A stretch of DNA of 36,267 nt from Ignavibacteria bacterium (GCA_016873775.1 VGWC01000021.1:1-36267); one strand, 5' to 3'. Positions 2,940-14,266 are shown, counted from the stretch's first letter. Notes: generated by a model from the sequence alone, not told the origin. Program-made: numbers and translations.

Positions 2940-4214
2940 TTATTCGACATTCTTTTTTTTCAATCCAAACAAGTGTTTCACAAACATATTCATTGTACGA
3001 GTATCAAAATTTGTTTGTCCGTTTATTTCTTTCATACTTACTGTTGGCGTATGCAAAATTTTATTGATAATGGATTTTGTTACCATATCAACTTTTTCTA
3101 ATTCGCTTGAAGAAAGTTTATTTCTATTTTTTTCGATTTCACTTGTGCGAATTTCTTCAAATCTATCGCGAAGCATTTTAATTGTTGGCGTAATATCAAG
3201 CGACTGATACCATTGAATGAAATCGCGCAATTCTTCTTCTATTATTTTTTGCACTTTCGGAATTTCTGCAATTCGCCGTTCACGATTGGTGTGAGAAATG
3301 AGTTCGAGCGAATCCATATCATCAAGAAAAACGTTTTCAATTTCGCGTACGCTTGGTTCAATATTCCGTGGAACGCCAATATCAATGATGAGCAACGGCT
3401 TTGATGAACGCAACGTCATCGCTTTCTTTATTTGTTGCGAAGTCAAAATAAAATCCGGTGTATTGATAGAACTAATTACAATATCAACGTCGCGCAGTTT
3501 TTCCGTAATTGCTTCAAGTGGTATTGCTTTTCCTTTAAACTCACTCGCAAGTTTTTCTGCTTTCTCCAACGTGCGATTTGCGATGGTAATATCAGTAACG
3601 CCACGAGCGAATAAATTTTTTGCAGAGAGTTCCGCCGTTTCTCCGGCGCCAATTAATAATGCTTTCTTTTTGGAAAGGTCAGCGAATATTTTTTCGGAAA
3701 GTTCGACTGCGGCGTAACTTATAGAAACTGCGCCATCGCTGATTTTCGTTTCTGTTCGCGCGCGTTTTCCAACTCGCAATGCTGAATGAAACATGTGATG
3801 CATCAATGTTCCCGCAGTTTCTTTTTCCACAGCGAGTTCATACGCTTCTTTTACTTGTTTTAAAATTTGGTCTTCTCCAACAAGCAAGGAATCAATTCCC
3901 GCAGCAACTTCAAAAATATGACGCACGGCTTCAAACGAATGTTGCGTGTAGAAATGATTATTGGAAATCGTGTCTTGTGCCGATTTATGTTCAATCAAAT
4001 AATTGATGATGTTTTCCGGTTTTTCATTTTCCGTTTCAACAACACCAACGAGTTCCGTGCGATTACACGTTGAAAGTAACACTCCCTCTTTCAAATACTG
4101 ATGAACGAGTTCCGGCAAAATCGGGCGCGCTTCGTCGAGAGTGTAATACAACTTCTCGCGGATTTCTACTGACGCGGTTTTGTGATTGAGGCCGATGAGT
4201 ACTAATTCATTCAT
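2940..4214 (-). CDS. hemA: Glutamyl-tRNA reductase
   Basis: HemA reduces glutamyl-tRNA(Glu) with NADPH to glutamate-1-semialdehyde, the first committed step of the C5 route to tetrapyrroles. The 424-aa protein has the catalytic cysteine in LLSTCNRTEL (C50), the N-terminal signature LIGLNHKTASVEIRE, the segment VGEDQILKQVKEAYELA in the catalytic domain, a Rossmann motif LLIGAGETAELSAKNL near 190-205 and a helical C-terminal dimerisation domain. Length is normal. It follows the ccsA/hemX-like gene with 81 bases of heptad repeat between. I do not see the companion aminomutase hemL or hemB in the window. Confidence 0.97.
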   Translation of the reverse strand: MNELVLIGLNHKTASVEIREKLYYTLDEARPILPELVHQYLKEGVLLSTCNRTELVGVVETENEKPENIINYLIEHKSAQDTISNNHFYTQHSFEAVRHIFEVAAGIDSLLVGEDQILKQVKEAYELAVEKETAGTLMHHMFHSALRVGKRARTETKISDGAVSISYAAVELSEKIFADLSKKKALLIGAGETAELSAKNLFARGVTDITIANRTLEKAEKLASEFKGKAIPLEAITEKLRDVDIVISSINTPDFILTSQQIKKAMTLRSSKPLLIIDIGVPRNIEPSVREIENVFLDDMDSLELISHTNRERRIAEIPKVQKIIEEELRDFIQWYQSLDITPTIKMLRDRFEEIRTSEIEKNRNKLSSSELEKVDMVTKSIINKILHTPTVSMKEINGQTNFDTRTMNMFVKHLFGLKKKNVE

Positions 4215-4223
4215 TTGAAAAAG

Positions 4224-4294
4224 TTATTTGTCATTTGTTATTTGTTATTAGTAATAAGTTGTTCACGAATGACTAATGACAAATTACAAATGAC
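4224..4294. repeat. Two opposed heptanucleotide arrays forming an inverted repeat
   Basis: Heptads TTATTTG, TCATTTG, TTATTTG, TTATTAG, TAATAAG run over 4224-4258, and GACTAAT, GACAAAT, TACAAAT over 4271-4291. The second array is close to the reverse complement of the first: the 24-base stretch at 4230-4253 pairs with 4271-4294 with two mismatches. The array ends against the ccsA-like stop codon at 4296. It may fold as a hairpin between the ccsA-like gene and hemA. Confidence 0.7.
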
Positions 4295-4295
4295 T

Positions 4296-5117
4296 TTAGT
4301 AAAACTTATGAAATCCGGAAATAACATTCGACAATGCCATCGAAAGAAATGTAACGAGAAAACCAATCATCGAGAGAATAGCAATTCTTCTTCCTTGAAA
4401 ACCGACAAACTTTTTCGCTGCAAGTCCAACAGCATATAAAAGCCAAATAAAAAATGTTCCGAGAACTTTTGCATCGGAATAACAAATTTCTGGAAACGCT
4501 TGCGGCAACCACACAAAACCAATTCCGATAACGAGCGAGAGAGCAACAAATCCGACAATAATTGCTTTTAAAGTGAGCGTTTCTAACGATTCAAGATTTG
4601 GAAGGTTGCGATAAATATTATCGAATGTACGCGTGCGAATTTTTTTATACAACATTACATAAAGCAAACCGTAAATTGCAGAAAGCGCAAACGCAGAATA
4701 ACCGAGCAACGCAGAAACAATATGAAAGGCGAGCAATTCGCTTTGCAAAATATCGTTCATTCCATAGTGATTCGGGGCGAAGATAGAAGAAGTTGAAACG
4801 AGAACACTGGAAATAATAAGAACAAAAAATCCTGTGTTTTTTACCCCGGAAATTATTTCTGTAAAAATGTACGCGCCCGCGAGTGTGAATCCAAGAACGC
4901 CCAGCAATTCAAGTGAAGACGTTACGGGAATGTGTTGTAATTCAGCGGTTCGTAAAATGAAAAAAATGCAATGTAAGAGCAGTGTGACACCAAGATATAA
5001 CGTCTTCAGTGTGCCGGACCGAGTATCGTTATTAAAAAATTCACGGCCATATCTCCACGAAGTTGCCAGATAAAGCAAGGGAACAAGATATTGTAGGGCG
5101 ATGATAGTGAATGGCAT
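4296..5117 (-). CDS. CcsA/HemX-family cytochrome c assembly membrane protein
   Basis: This is a 273-aa polytopic protein with about eight hydrophobic segments. The sequence FHIVSALLGYSAFALSAIYG (about 131-150), the following LPNLESLETLT and the late segments WLPQAF and FFIWLLYAVGLAAKKF are typical of the CcsA/HemX/CycK group, which handles heme for cytochrome c maturation or modulates HemA abundance. The classical WGxxWxWD loop of full CcsA/CcmF proteins is not evident, so the HemX branch fits better, and its position directly upstream of hemA agrees. Which of the two roles applies cannot be told from sequence. It is probably the first gene of the heme operon. Confidence 0.85.
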   Translation of the reverse strand: MPFTIIALQYLVPLLYLATSWRYGREFFNNDTRSGTLKTLYLGVTLLLHCIFFILRTAELQHIPVTSSLELLGVLGFTLAGAYIFTEIISGVKNTGFFVLIISSVLVSTSSIFAPNHYGMNDILQSELLAFHIVSALLGYSAFALSAIYGLLYVMLYKKIRTRTFDNIYRNLPNLESLETLTLKAIIVGFVALSLVIGIGFVWLPQAFPEICYSDAKVLGTFFIWLLYAVGLAAKKFVGFQGRRIAILSMIGFLVTFLSMALSNVISGFHKFY

Positions 5118-9099: not shown

Positions 9100-9227
9100 T
9101 TACTTCAACGCTTTGATTACTGCATCGTGCAACAATGGTCGCACGTCACGGATTTTCAAATTCGCTCTCGTCGGAAAAGTTCTGTTCGTCAAAAAGATGA
9201 CGAATAAATTACTTTCTATACCCATAC
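9100..9227 (-). pseudogene. Relic of the 3' end of the GH3/serine-hydrolase fusion gene
   Basis: The minus strand reads IESNLFVIFLTNRTFPTRAN and on through a segment ending RPLLHDAVIKALK and a TAA at 9100-9102. This matches the last 36 or so residues of the intact fusion protein, which reads NLFVIFLTNRTFPTRAN and ends RPMLHDAVVKSLK. The two DNA segments also look alike. Just upstream an IVW in another frame matches the SIWV of the intact gene, so the relic is frameshifted and then lost. It has no start codon of its own that makes sense. The intact copy ends at 10249, and the alpha/beta hydrolase gene lies between the two copies, which points to an old duplication or insertion. Confidence 0.8.
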
Positions 9228-10248: not shown

Positions 10249-13200
10249 CTATTTGAGACTTTTTACTACTGCATCGTGTAACATCGGGCGAACGTTTCTG
10301 ATTTTTGTATTTGCGCGTGTCGGAAAAGTTCTATTTGTTAAAAAAATCACGAACAAATTTCTTTCTTTATCAACCCAAATTGATGTTCCGGTAAATCCTG
10401 TATGTCCGAAAGAATTTTGCGAAAACAAATTTCCTGCTGTGCTGTAACCGTTCGCTGTTTTCAAATCCCAACCAAGCGCACGATTTGATTTTTCGTTTTG
10501 TTTTGAAGTAAATAAATCAATCGTTTCTTTTTTGAAATATTGTTTGCCGGCGTATGTTCCGCCGTTTAAAATCATTTGCATAAAAATTGCCAAATCATTT
10601 GCAGTAGAAAATAATCCCGCGTGTCCGGCAACTCCGCCGAGCATTGCAGAAGTTTCATCGTGAACACTTCCTTGCACGGTTTTCAATCGCCACGTTGTAT
10701 CAATTTCTGTCGGCGCGCAATTTTCAGAATCGTATTTCGATGGAGTGAAAAATGTACGCTTCATTCGTAACGGTTCAAAGAAATTTTCTTTGCAAAATTT
10801 GTCGAATTTTTTTCCAGAAATCGTTTCAACGATTTTTCCGAGCGTAATAAAATTGAAATCACTGTATAACGTTGAATCTCCCGGATTGAAAAACAATTCG
10901 CTTGCATAAATCGAATCAAGAACTTCACTTGCTTTCATTTGCGGATTCATTTTGTAAAACTGTTTGAACGCAGGCAATCCACTATTGTGTAAAAGCAAAT
11001 TGCGAATCGTGATGTTGCTTTTTTCATTCAGAGCAAATTGCGGAATAAATTTTATCACTGAATCATCGAGCGAAATTTTTTTCTCTTCGTATAATTTCAT
11101 AATTGCAGAAGTTGTAGCAATTACTTTCGTGAGCGACGCCAAATCGAAAAGTGTACTAGAATTTGTTTGCGCAGAATTTCTTTCATACGTCAATCGTCCG
11201 TACGAATTTTGTTTCACGACAATTCCATTTTTTACAACCACAATTTGTGCAGCAGGAAATGCAGAATCACGAATCGCATGAACAATCACCGAATCAACTT
11301 CATACAATTTTTCTTTGTTGAAATTTGCGGCAAGCGGAACATCTTTTCGCAATGTTGTTTGTGGAATTTGTAATCCTTCGCCGTACGCAAATGTTTTTGG
11401 AATTGTTACGGGAAGTTTTCCGCTTACTTCACTTTCGCCAAATAAAACTTCAACAGCAGATTCAATTGATGGCTCAACATCGGAATATGTTGCGATGAGA
11501 ACGATTGCTTTGTTGAGTTTTGAAAACACATACGGATTGCCGAAAGAAATCATCGCCATCGGTTTTTCACTCACGGAAATTTTTTTCAACGCATCGAAAA
11601 CTTCTTTCGTCATTCCAAACGTTTCGGAATTATTCGGTCGCAAAAACATTGGGCAAATTATCGCATCGTATTTTTTCACTTTATCAAACACATCATCAAT
11701 ATCTTCTTTGCTCGTGCGCGAATCGAACAAAACGGTTGTAACATTGTTCGCTCGCTTTTTTAACACTTCCGTGAAATACACATCGTAACGTTCTGTTGCT
11801 AATCTTCGCGTCGGACGATGAACATCAATTCTATAATCATCATTTGTTGCAACGCAAAGATTCAAAATTTTTTTATCACGAAATTGTTCAAACGGAAGAA
11901 GCGAATCGTTTTTCAACACCGTAATACTTTTTCGCGCAATTGTTTTCGCAACGAATTGATGTTCCATTGTATTAACTTTTTCCCGAATCGAATCAATGTT
12001 CGTCAGTTTATTTTTGTGCAATCCGAGTTGTTCTTTCAGTTTCAAAATTTTCAACACCGTTTGATTGATACGCGCTTCGGAAATTCTTCCAATGTTCACT
12101 GCATACAGAACAGAATCAATTGCAACGTCATCATCAACAGGACCAAGCAAAATATCGCTTCCCGTTTCTATTGCACGAATTGCAATTTCTCCATCGGAAA
12201 AATTTTTTCTGATTCCCTGCATTTCCAAACCATCGGTAATCACCAATCCGTTGAAGTGCAATTTATTTACAAGAAGATTTTCGATGACGTTGGAAGAAAG
12301 AGACGCGGGAATTTTTTTATCTGATTCAAGCGAAGGAATTGCAAGATGCGCAATCATCATTGATTTTACGCCGCTCGCAATAGCATTTTCAAACGGAACG
12401 AGTTCGAGCGAATCCAAACGCTGCAACGAAAATTTCAACAACGGCAAATCGCTGTGAGAATCAACATCCGTATCGCCGTGTCCGGGAAAATGTTTTGCGG
12501 TTGCAATAATTCCGTTGTCTTGCATTCCGCGAATCATCGCCGAACTCATTTGCGAAACGAGTTGCGGCGTTTCACCGAACGAACGATAATTGATGACAGG
12601 ATTGAACGGATTGTTGTTCACATCAACGACCGGAGAAAAATTCATTTGCACACCAATAGCACGCGATTCTTCTGCAATAATTTTTCCCATTGCATATGCA
12701 AGCGAAGTATCACGCGTTGCACCAAGCGCCATCAAATGCGGAAAAGAAGTTCCGCGCCGAATGCGCATCGAAAGTCCCGTTTCAAAATCTGCGGCAACGA
12801 GAAGCGGAACATTTGCTTCTTTTTGCAAATCGTTGAGCAACGTTGCAACTTCGAGCAAATCACTTTGGAAAATTGCGATGCTTCCAATTTTTCTGTCGCG
12901 CACTAAATGCAAAAGCCGTTCGTATTCATTCGTTCCTTTTGCATAATAATACGCATACACTTTTGGCATTACGAGTTGTGCAACTTTTTCTTCGAGTGTG
13001 AGTTTTTGTAAAACAGAATCGCTCCAAGATTGTTGAGCATGGAGCGGAGAGCATAGAGCAAAGAGCAGAGAGCATAGAGCAAGGAGCGTGGAGCGTGGAG
13101 CAAATCCACTGAACATTTGGCGAATAGAGAATAACAAATGATGACTTAAAGATGTGACATAAAGATTTTTCATCTGCGGCAATTTGCGAAGTCTGCGGGA

Positions 13201-13320
13201 AATAGTTTCCCGCAAATCTCGCTGATGTACGCAGAGAGCCAATAGCAAAGAACCAATAGCCAACAGCAATTTTATTGTTCGTAATTCGTAATTGGTAATT
13301 CGTAATTGGAAATTTGTCAT
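10249..13320 (-). CDS. GH3 beta-N-acetylglucosaminidase fused to beta-lactamase-fold serine hydrolase
   Basis: The frame is 1023 aa. A NagZ-type GH3 domain (about 105-435) has KHFPGHGDT (276-284), the NagZ catalytic Asp/His loop, and the nucleophile in VITDGLEM (D363). A GH3 C-terminal sandwich domain (about 460-640) follows. The last 350 residues are a class-C-like serine hydrolase with SLTK (S729, K732), YSD (819-821) and GHTG near 975. In Bacillus, NagZ and the serine hydrolase AmiE act in sequence to free GlcNAc and MurNAc from muropeptides; here both are one polypeptide, an arrangement known in Bacteroidota. The N-terminus is peculiar: much of the first 96 codons is repeat DNA. Starts at 13320, 13173 (M50) or 13116 (M69) are possible; from M69 the segment TLLALCSLLFALC then HAQQ is a good signal peptide. 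The ATG at 13318 is 1 base after the kinase stop. Confidence 0.9.
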   Translation of the reverse strand: MTNFQLRITNYELRTIKLLLAIGSLLLALCVHQRDLRETISRRLRKLPQMKNLYVTSLSHHLLFSIRQMFSGFAPRSTLLALCSLLFALCSPLHAQQSWSDSVLQKLTLEEKVAQLVMPKVYAYYYAKGTNEYERLLHLVRDRKIGSIAIFQSDLLEVATLLNDLQKEANVPLLVAADFETGLSMRIRRGTSFPHLMALGATRDTSLAYAMGKIIAEESRAIGVQMNFSPVVDVNNNPFNPVINYRSFGETPQLVSQMSSAMIRGMQDNGIIATAKHFPGHGDTDVDSHSDLPLLKFSLQRLDSLELVPFENAIASGVKSMMIAHLAIPSLESDKKIPASLSSNVIENLLVNKLHFNGLVITDGLEMQGIRKNFSDGEIAIRAIETGSDILLGPVDDDVAIDSVLYAVNIGRISEARINQTVLKILKLKEQLGLHKNKLTNIDSIREKVNTMEHQFVAKTIARKSITVLKNDSLLPFEQFRDKKILNLCVATNDDYRIDVHRPTRRLATERYDVYFTEVLKKRANNVTTVLFDSRTSKEDIDDVFDKVKKYDAIICPMFLRPNNSETFGMTKEVFDALKKISVSEKPMAMISFGNPYVFSKLNKAIVLIATYSDVEPSIESAVEVLFGESEVSGKLPVTIPKTFAYGEGLQIPQTTLRKDVPLAANFNKEKLYEVDSVIVHAIRDSAFPAAQIVVVKNGIVVKQNSYGRLTYERNSAQTNSSTLFDLASLTKVIATTSAIMKLYEEKKISLDDSVIKFIPQFALNEKSNITIRNLLLHNSGLPAFKQFYKMNPQMKASEVLDSIYASELFFNPGDSTLYSDFNFITLGKIVETISGKKFDKFCKENFFEPLRMKRTFFTPSKYDSENCAPTEIDTTWRLKTVQGSVHDETSAMLGGVAGHAGLFSTANDLAIFMQMILNGGTYAGKQYFKKETIDLFTSKQNEKSNRALGWDLKTANGYSTAGNLFSQNSFGHTGFTGTSIWVDKERNLFVIFLTNRTFPTRANTKIRNVRPMLHDAVVKSLK
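13035..13104. repeat. Ten-unit GAGCNNN heptanucleotide array inside a coding signal peptide
   Basis: Ten consecutive 7-base units all begin GAGC: GAGCATG, GAGCGGA, GAGCATA, GAGCAAA, GAGCAGA, GAGCATA, GAGCAAG, GAGCGTG, GAGCGTG, GAGCAAA. Read on the minus strand they encode the leucine-rich hydrophobic core of the fusion protein's signal peptide, with a seven-residue period (STLLALC, SLLFALC). Confidence 0.9.
13173..13235. repeat. Palindromic repeat element inside the fusion gene's 5' end
   Basis: The inner arms TGCGGGAAA and TTTCCCGCA (13194-13202, 13206-13214) flank a TAG loop, and outer arms TCTGCG (13173) and CGCAGA (13230) bracket the element, with partial pairing between. Elements built from TCTGCG/GCGGGAAA words are, to my recollection, common interspersed repeats in several phyla; this copy is out of place in being coding. 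Confidence 0.7.
13237..13271. repeat. Five-unit heptanucleotide array
   Basis: AGCCAAT, AGCAAAG, AACCAAT, AGCCAAC and AGCAATT follow at exact 7-base spacing, two bases after the palindromic element. They lie inside the frame of the fusion gene and encode the segment LLLAIGSLLLALC. Confidence 0.7.
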
Positions 13321-13321
13321 T
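13280..13321. repeat. Heptanucleotide array over the fusion gene's first start codon
   Basis: CGTAATT, CGTAATT, GGTAATT, CGTAATT, GGAAATT, TGTCATT run in register and include the ATG at 13318-13320, so the first residues MTNFQLRITNYELR are repeat-encoded. The array ends one base before the kinase stop codon. Confidence 0.8.
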
Positions 13322-14266
13322 TTACTTTTTCATTGAAATGAGAATCGCTCCGTGCGTTGCGGGAAATTTTGGTTTGCGTATTTCGAGTTGTGGAAAATAG
13401 TGTTTGATTTTTTCTTTGAGCATTTGTGAATAAAAATTTTCGTTTTCTAATAATCCACCGAGCAAAACAAGTGGAAGTTTTTCTGCATTGTGAAAATTAT
13501 TGAACATCAAATGAAGTTGTTGCAGTAATTCATTGCAATGAAATTCTACAACAAACAAACTTTGAAAATCTTTTTCCTTCGCGAGTTGGATTACGATTGG
13601 CGCGAACGAAGCAAGAACAGTATTCGTATTTGAAATTTTTGACGGAAGTTCAACAACTGATTTTACGTTGAAGAATGATAACGCCGCATTCGTAAGTTCT
13701 GTTGGTTTAATTTTTCTATCGAAGGATTTTACAACTTCCTTCAACGCATCACGTGCAATTGCAAAACCGCTTCCTTCATCGCCGATAATTTTTCCCCAAC
13801 CGCCGATGCGAAAGATTTGCGATGTTGGATTTGGGTTTTGAGAATCGTAATTCTTCCCAAATAATATAGAACCAGTTCCGGCAATCAAAACAATTCCGCT
13901 TTCATTGCCGAGCGCGGCTTCTACTGCAATTTCTGCATCGCTTGTTACTTTGATTTTTGCAGAAGTATTTCTTCGTAAAATTTTTCGCAATTCTTTTTTT
14001 AAGCGAAGTTGGTTTTGTTTGTTTCCTCCGCCAGCAGTTCCGATTGCAATGGAAGAAATTTCTTTCAACGGGCATTTTGCTTTTTTACTACAATCGGAAA
14101 TTAAATTCAAAATTACTTTTGTTGCTTGCTCAAATCCGACAACATTCGGATTTGTTGCCTTTCCTTTTGTTTGCGAAAATATTTTTCCGTTTTCATTGCA
14201 TAAGATTGCGGTAGATTTTGTTCCTCCGCCTTCGATGCCGATGAAATATTTTTTTCTTGAACTCAT
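13322..14266 (-). CDS. BadF/BadG-type ATPase, probable GlcNAc or MurNAc kinase
   Basis: A 314-aa ASKHA-fold protein. The first phosphate loop is GIEGGGTKSTAIL (about 9-21), the second GTAGGG, the adenosine loop IAGTGSILFG and the conserved GGWGKIIGDEGSGFAIARDAL. This set is typical of N-acetylglucosamine kinases of the BadF/BadG/BcrA/BcrD family, which includes the MurNAc/GlcNAc kinase MurK. It is the first gene of the minus-strand group and is followed, 1 base later, by the NagZ/AmiE-like fusion whose products would be its sugars. That context supports a recycling role. A benzoyl-CoA-type activator is less likely since the cysteine cluster of those proteins is missing. Confidence 0.85.
   Translation of the reverse strand: MSSRKKYFIGIEGGGTKSTAILCNENGKIFSQTKGKATNPNVVGFEQATKVILNLISDCSKKAKCPLKEISSIAIGTAGGGNKQNQLRLKKELRKILRRNTSAKIKVTSDAEIAVEAALGNESGIVLIAGTGSILFGKNYDSQNPNPTSQIFRIGGWGKIIGDEGSGFAIARDALKEVVKSFDRKIKPTELTNAALSFFNVKSVVELPSKISNTNTVLASFAPIVIQLAKEKDFQSLFVVEFHCNELLQQLHLMFNNFHNAEKLPLVLLGGLLENENFYSQMLKEKIKHYFPQLEIRKPKFPATHGAILISMKK

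Follow-up and report, generated by a model that had tools for sequence, protein, structure and literature searches.

The leader of a GH3/beta-lactamase fusion protein from an uncultured Ignavibacteria bacterium is probably a signal peptide composed of tandem heptanucleotide repeats, and one case of a lineage-wide process in which such arrays are kept where the hydropathy encoded by their strand fits the site. The fusion gene lies on the minus strand (10249-13320) of the stretch VGWC01000021.1:1-36267 (GCA_016873775.1; a draft genome of 157 contigs), which was analysed over its full 36,267 nt and is referred to as the window. Taken as the longest open reading frame (1023 aa), the gene combines GH3 domains (PF00933, PF01915) with a beta-lactamase-type domain (PF00144).

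A predicted signal peptide encoded by heptads

Ten GAGCNNN units follow one another in register at 13035-13104 and read as GCTCNNN in the sense of the gene (minus strand). The array, already described in a first-pass annotation of the window, was recovered by direct reading and by Tandem Repeats Finder (TRF); re-drawing the window 100 times from a first-order Markov model gave at most 2 units, and the head-to-tail 7-nt units thus form a tandem heptanucleotide repeat beyond chance expectation. As had also been claimed, a single open frame runs through all the leader repeats into the GH3, GH3_C and beta-lactamase domains (translation and domain search). The DNA between the first ATG (13320-13318) and the mature GH3 domain consists mostly of repeats.

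In the protein, the array product APRSTLLALCSLLFALCSPLHA, a predicted hydrophobic region (h-region) and cleavage region (c-region), is followed by QQSWSDSVLQKLTLEEK. The best 12-residue Kyte-Doolittle mean of the leader is 2.78 (2.0-3.3 among 19 repeat-built leaders), and the hydrophobic stretch of about 8 or more residues expected of an h-region is present. Cleavage is predicted between Ala95 (codon 13036-13038, minus strand) and Gln96, in SPLHA/QQSW, where family-wide homology starts; judged by residue rules, position -1 holds the small residue expected and the Leu at -3 is permitted, if not the commonest choice. The array looks like the predicted core of a signal peptidase I signal together with its cut site; such a signal would direct Sec-type export. 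A lipobox reading of LLALC/LFALC was rejected: Leu precedes the Cys, and [LVI][ASTVI][GAS]C is not matched.

When 98 genomes of the order were searched, homology in the best-matching orthologues set in at residues 1-7 after the array, directly 3' of the repeat-coded part, which supports the earlier proposal that repeat DNA supplies the signal-peptide core. No orthologue sharing the N-terminal 96 residues in repeat-free form was found in this comparison. Outside the genus, the N-terminus could be read in 26 orthologues. Of these, 24 carry a lipobox-type Cys and a linker, free of repeats, and the signals of the remaining pair (L168, L174) are type-I-like and likewise repeat-free, so that the genus of the window has a predicted signal that is different from those of its relatives and repeat-built. 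This agrees with the suggestion that an older signal was replaced. The other family member, G001, was left out of the N-terminus comparison, its sequence being cut at residue 25; a protein scan of the genome contigs found one close relative only.

In a congener (G002; JAGXRH010000166.1, Ignavibacteriales bacterium isolate CROMO_A_84) the mature protein is 83% identical to that of the window, and the 35-residue leader, MTYYLLQITNYELRFAKLFFVLCVLFFAPHSTLLA/QTWSDS, is built from the same repeat families. Its 35 codons include one ATG and no GTG or TTG; the ATG lies within an AATGACC heptad and overlaps the stop of the upstream kinase gene. Because this lone start codon sits inside a heptad, the G002 repeats must be translated if the G002 protein has any signal, which tells against the earlier idea that the repeats are an untranslated leader. 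Common to both species are ITNYELR (from AATTACG heptads) and FAP[R/H]STLLA, with APHSTLLA of G002 coded by four worn GCTC units; after the latter the window species has exactly 14 additional residues (42 nt, six units). In the window species the old signal is further divided by an extra stretch of about 43 residues, which bears the palindrome; no palindrome was detected in G002.

These differences suggest a history in which an older repeat-built signal, resembling that of G002, was interrupted by the palindrome-bearing insertion, breaking the hydrophobic core. Lengthening of the GCTC array by six units, if that was the direction of the 42-nt change, would have supplied a new complete core downstream of the break, and a new start might have arisen at M50 (13173) or M69 (13116).

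Strand and hydropathy of the arrays

A perfect 7-nt array yields the identical cyclic heptapeptide in all three frames, 7 being no multiple of 3, and the peptide therefore depends on the strand alone. On the GCTC strand it is ALCSxLx, which is hydrophobic with an Ala each seven residues; on the GAGC strand it is the hydrophilic EQRAxSx. Averaged across the arrays in the window's genome, the Kyte-Doolittle value is +1.48 in GCTC sense and -1.76 in GAGC sense, with stops in 1/78 and 33/78 frames, respectively. An array in GCTC sense is thus almost always open and hydrophobic.

Only exact runs of at least three GAGC units were counted as arrays, and the counts depend on that definition. All 10 arrays at the N-termini of exported-type proteins in the window's genome (one of them of lipoprotein type) are in GCTC sense, the hosts being GH3, S9 peptidase, a large PD40-repeat protein, M28 peptidase, M1 peptidase, BatD, an amidohydrolase, an OstA-like protein, a sortilin-like protein and one unnamed protein. 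All 11 internal or C-terminal arrays are in GAGC sense; they occur in MutS, UvrC, CN hydrolase, PNP, UbiD, PurL, a chorismate-binding enzyme, a second amidohydrolase, CysS and two C-terminal tails (genes named by eye). Five further arrays are intergenic. Strand and context are strongly associated (10:0 versus 0:11, Fisher 2.8e-6), and after addition of G002 and of G168, from another family of the order, with orthologues collapsed, the ratio GCTC:GAGC is 14:0 for N-terminal signals and 1:14 for internal or C-terminal arrays (Fisher p 2e-7). Among the signals, the added genomes contributed a thioredoxin-like protein, a TPR protein and two long-leader proteins. Among the loops, they contributed a second TPR protein, a multihaem cytochrome and a sugar phosphomutase-like protein (named by eye).

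The Ala codon of the array falls in phase with position -1 in 14/17 type-I leaders, a descriptive figure whose p-value uses a rough null of 1/3. A stricter version, that the cut always falls at a terminal GCTCAA heptad, was dropped; the relaxed pattern gave 5 matches against 48 for the reversed control. In coding arrays, spacer identity is higher at lag 3 (0.48) than at lag 1 (0.37), as a 21-nt higher-order period left by coding selection would give, though the data are too few to carry that reading. Hydrophobic signal cores are also obtained from a second heptad family: AATKACN arrays read backwards code for VIGHWSLVI-like cores at contigs C9, C55, C62 and C77. L124, which belongs to a third lineage of the class, has the lipoprotein-like predicted signal CSLLFALCSLLFVASC from a GCTC/GAGC heptad.

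On the hydrophilic side, the repeat segments of CysS, PNP and CN hydrolase have no counterpart in their PDB homologues, and the alignments of UbiD and PurL to PDB homologues stop or thin at the arrays. The insert sites of UbiD and CysS are variable hydrophilic loops across the order, filled in a species-specific and sometimes repeat-like manner. UbiD differs by exactly 14 residues between two congeners (G143 and G168); in UbiD, L244 and L245 are separated by an exact 42-nt step.

A general scheme would account for both sides. Heptads (GAGCNNN; AATKACN) would arise at many sites and change copy number; a GCTC-strand array could be used in a signal peptide as its h-region, c-region and cleavage site, and a surface loop could accommodate a GAGC-strand array. 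Genic arrays would then be retained by selection only at sites that suit the hydropathy of their strand. More broadly, and with slightly more doubt than confidence, each heptad array may be seen as a frame-independent module, with one strand supplying a ready signal peptide and the opposite strand a ready hydrophilic linker, from which lineages might repeatedly create, lengthen and replace signals, changing export and anchoring.

Several observations weigh against the general scheme. Array contexts were assigned by a simple codon-usage score and by-eye reading. A glycyl-tRNA synthetase-like enzyme of G002 (L048) has an internal GCTC-sense insert, and short GCTC-sense stretches occur in some UbiD orthologues. 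One GAGC-sense insert sits in a multihaem cytochrome; the strand rule therefore concerns the hydropathy of the segment and not the compartment of the protein. There is no enrichment of a terminal GCTCAA heptad as a literal motif. In G034 (58% GC) the arrays are mainly intergenic, and coding use is thus not universal. Finally, L168 and L174, with their repeat-free type-I-like signals, imply that a lipobox can be lost without repeats. As to the G034 arrays, a reading as signals was rejected, their upstream parts scoring as non-coding, and they were counted as intergenic.

Constancy within the arrays was seen in three runs of G168 (L208:2475-2670, L200:2700-2890, L212:3130-3262), where GAG[C/T] is near-invariant over about 15-28 units. 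The 3-nt spacers vary, also between genes, and hardly ever contain C, in intergenic DNA as well. Such constancy of the core is unlike slippage with neutral decay; this is suggestive only, the unit definition itself favouring the core.

Start codons, accompanying repeats and alternative explanations

The GH3 fusion follows a BadF/BadG-type kinase gene (13322-14266, minus strand), whose TAA stop (13324-13322) ends one base ahead of the first ATG. In-frame candidate starts lie at 13320, 13173 and 13116, and with each of them the h-region is preceded by one or more Arg or Lys residues. M50 (13171-13173, minus strand), an ATG at the palindrome edge, would give a signal peptide of 46 residues, and M69 (13114-13116, minus strand) one of 27 residues, MFSGFAPRSTLLALCSLLFALCSPLHA. 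The first-pass annotation placed M69 correctly at 13116 and overlooked M50. Its alternative of a start at M69 with the rest untranslated fails for the GAGC array, which by its position is coding whichever candidate start is used, and is conceivable for 13117-13320 only. Start codons close to heptad arrays are readily misplaced in annotation.

Upstream of the GCTC array, an AATKACN/CGTAATT array (13280-13320, minus strand; sense AATTACG/AATTACC/AATGACA) contains the first ATG, as had been noted, and codes for the predicted n-region MTNFQLRITNYELR; two-unit matches to AATKACNAATKAC number 6 in the window, against 0.08 expected from shuffling. Degenerate AGCCAAT-type heptads at 13237-13271 (minus strand) code for about LLLAIGSLLLAL, the first hydrophobic stretch. 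They had been listed as a five-unit array; a repeat is there and it is weak, with TRF reporting just a 14-nt period in about two copies (score 46). A 13-bp imperfect direct duplication at 13142-13167 had been missed.

The palindrome, a dispersed element of 63 nt at 13173-13235, was confirmed: its two 30-nt arms are 73% complementary and it folds at -32.3 kcal/mol (z -5.7). The window's genome has it at nine places, and there are 15 matches in G253; none was detected in G002, and the element is missing at that congener's GH3 locus. The copies (the window's own and L184, L186, L188, L190, L192, L194, L196 and L198) are mostly extragenic. Several lie directly upstream of exported genes, among them L190, with the same PQMKN join as at M50 of GH3, and the copy at L198 is in frame within a gene.

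The most serious alternative is that array-built signals are cassettes, which recombination or gene conversion carries from locus to locus, instead of arising independently. A codon phase ending in ALCSPLxA/Q is common to 14/17 cases, and C55 and C64 both have composite leaders with MTND/ITND, HWSLV and LLYAxCS. However, signal peptidase I requires Ala at -1, so that the same phase is expected under independent selection too; spacers differ from gene to gene, and no long identity between leaders was measured. We consider such spread unlikely.

Alternatively, the arrays might be intergenic, regulatory or structural DNA (5' untranslated region, hairpins), with an accidental open frame and proteins that start elsewhere. 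Many AATKACN arrays and most of those in G034 are indeed intergenic, often as close inverted pairs, and 13117-13320 could be untranslated if M69 is the start. Yet the GH3 protein would lack any export signal if the GCTC array were not part of it, and the only start codon of the congener lies upstream of both arrays; strand and codon phase match the needs of a signal peptide in 14 independent genes, and internal arrays are flanked on both sides by coding sequence in the same frame. This explanation has little probability. Close inverted pairs of AATKACN, mostly intergenic and forming hairpins, were seen in the window's genome (G000) at C3:63419/63447, C15:1340/1368, C16:28975/29013, C23:17050/17089, C33:5557/5601, C50:492/565 and C118:926/971; possibly they are terminators. 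The pair at C55 codes for MTNDK and VIGHWSLVI, the n-region and h-region of a predicted signal.

Drift of ordinary signals and loops towards repeat-like codons through composition bias is very improbable and largely refuted: Leu/Ala/Ser/Cys-rich h-regions do partly resemble GCTCNNN in composition, but codon bias cannot yield ten perfect 4-nt cores in 7-nt register, the same unit set fills intergenic arrays and opposite-strand hydrophilic loops, and congeners differ by exact 42-nt steps in GH3 and UbiD.

Other repeat-related features were recorded nearby and elsewhere. The kinase of G002 (L032) has an in-frame repeat-like loop insert of ~26 residues, including MTNDQLRMTNNEYPMFNVECRS, where the window kinase has ~13 residues. 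GTTATTT and AATGACA heptad arrays lie at 4223-4294 of the window, between genes 2940-4214 and 4296-5117. Short detached copies of gene 3' ends were noted at 9103-9219 of the window (minus strand), G000:C89:200-376 and G000:C41:19065-19121: the last 39 residues of the GH3 fusion recur (82% identical) ~1 kb downstream of that gene, and the last 19 residues of UbiD (89%) ~0.5 kb downstream of UbiD. Such copies may be the mark of a tail-duplicating insertion process.

Relation to known repeat systems

The origin of new signal peptides is an open question, and here the raw material is visible, as a repeat type that is usually intergenic. Turnover of repeats would be a route to altered protein localisation, from the lipoprotein type of most relatives to the soluble type predicted in the genus of the window. 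Given nothing but the strand of the DNA, the rule predicts the genic sites at which an array can persist, and it is testable in any heptad-bearing genome. Neither signal peptides from tandem DNA repeats nor a strand rule for hydropathy was found in the open-access literature, which excludes most subscription journals; in-frame repeat insertion is already known from Rickettsia.

The short tandemly repeated repetitive (STRR) sequences of cyanobacteria are degenerate, many-copy tandem heptads of variable length among relatives. The heptameric simple sequence repeats of Xanthomonas and Nostoc (PMC4692102) share these properties with the arrays described here, of which the GAGCNNN arrays differ in being mostly genic in the window's genome. 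In marine Beggiatoaceae, TAACTGA direct repeats are likewise heptads at many genome sites; they are intergenic, with a proposed role in post-transcriptional regulation, and no coding role is described in the part of that paper considered here (PMC4679880). The phase-variable contingency loci of Haemophilus (PMC8262952) resemble our arrays in having tandem repeats of changeable copy number by gene starts. Unlike at those loci, only exact 42-nt differences between species were seen here; a change of one unit (7 nt) would shift the frame of the downstream domains, and switching is conceivable.

A close parallel for in-frame insertion into protein genes is provided by the Rickettsia palindromic elements (Ogata et al. 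2000, reviewed in PMC10969869), which occur in frame in unrelated genes and add peptides that are apparently compatible with fold and function. Those elements are ~150 bp long and palindromic and encode a conserved peptide, whereas the heptad arrays are 7-nt tandem repeats and frame-independent. The 63-nt palindrome at the GH3 locus is nearer in kind to them, yet incidental to the signal. Unlike the Rickettsia elements, the heptad arrays also form predicted N-terminal export signals.
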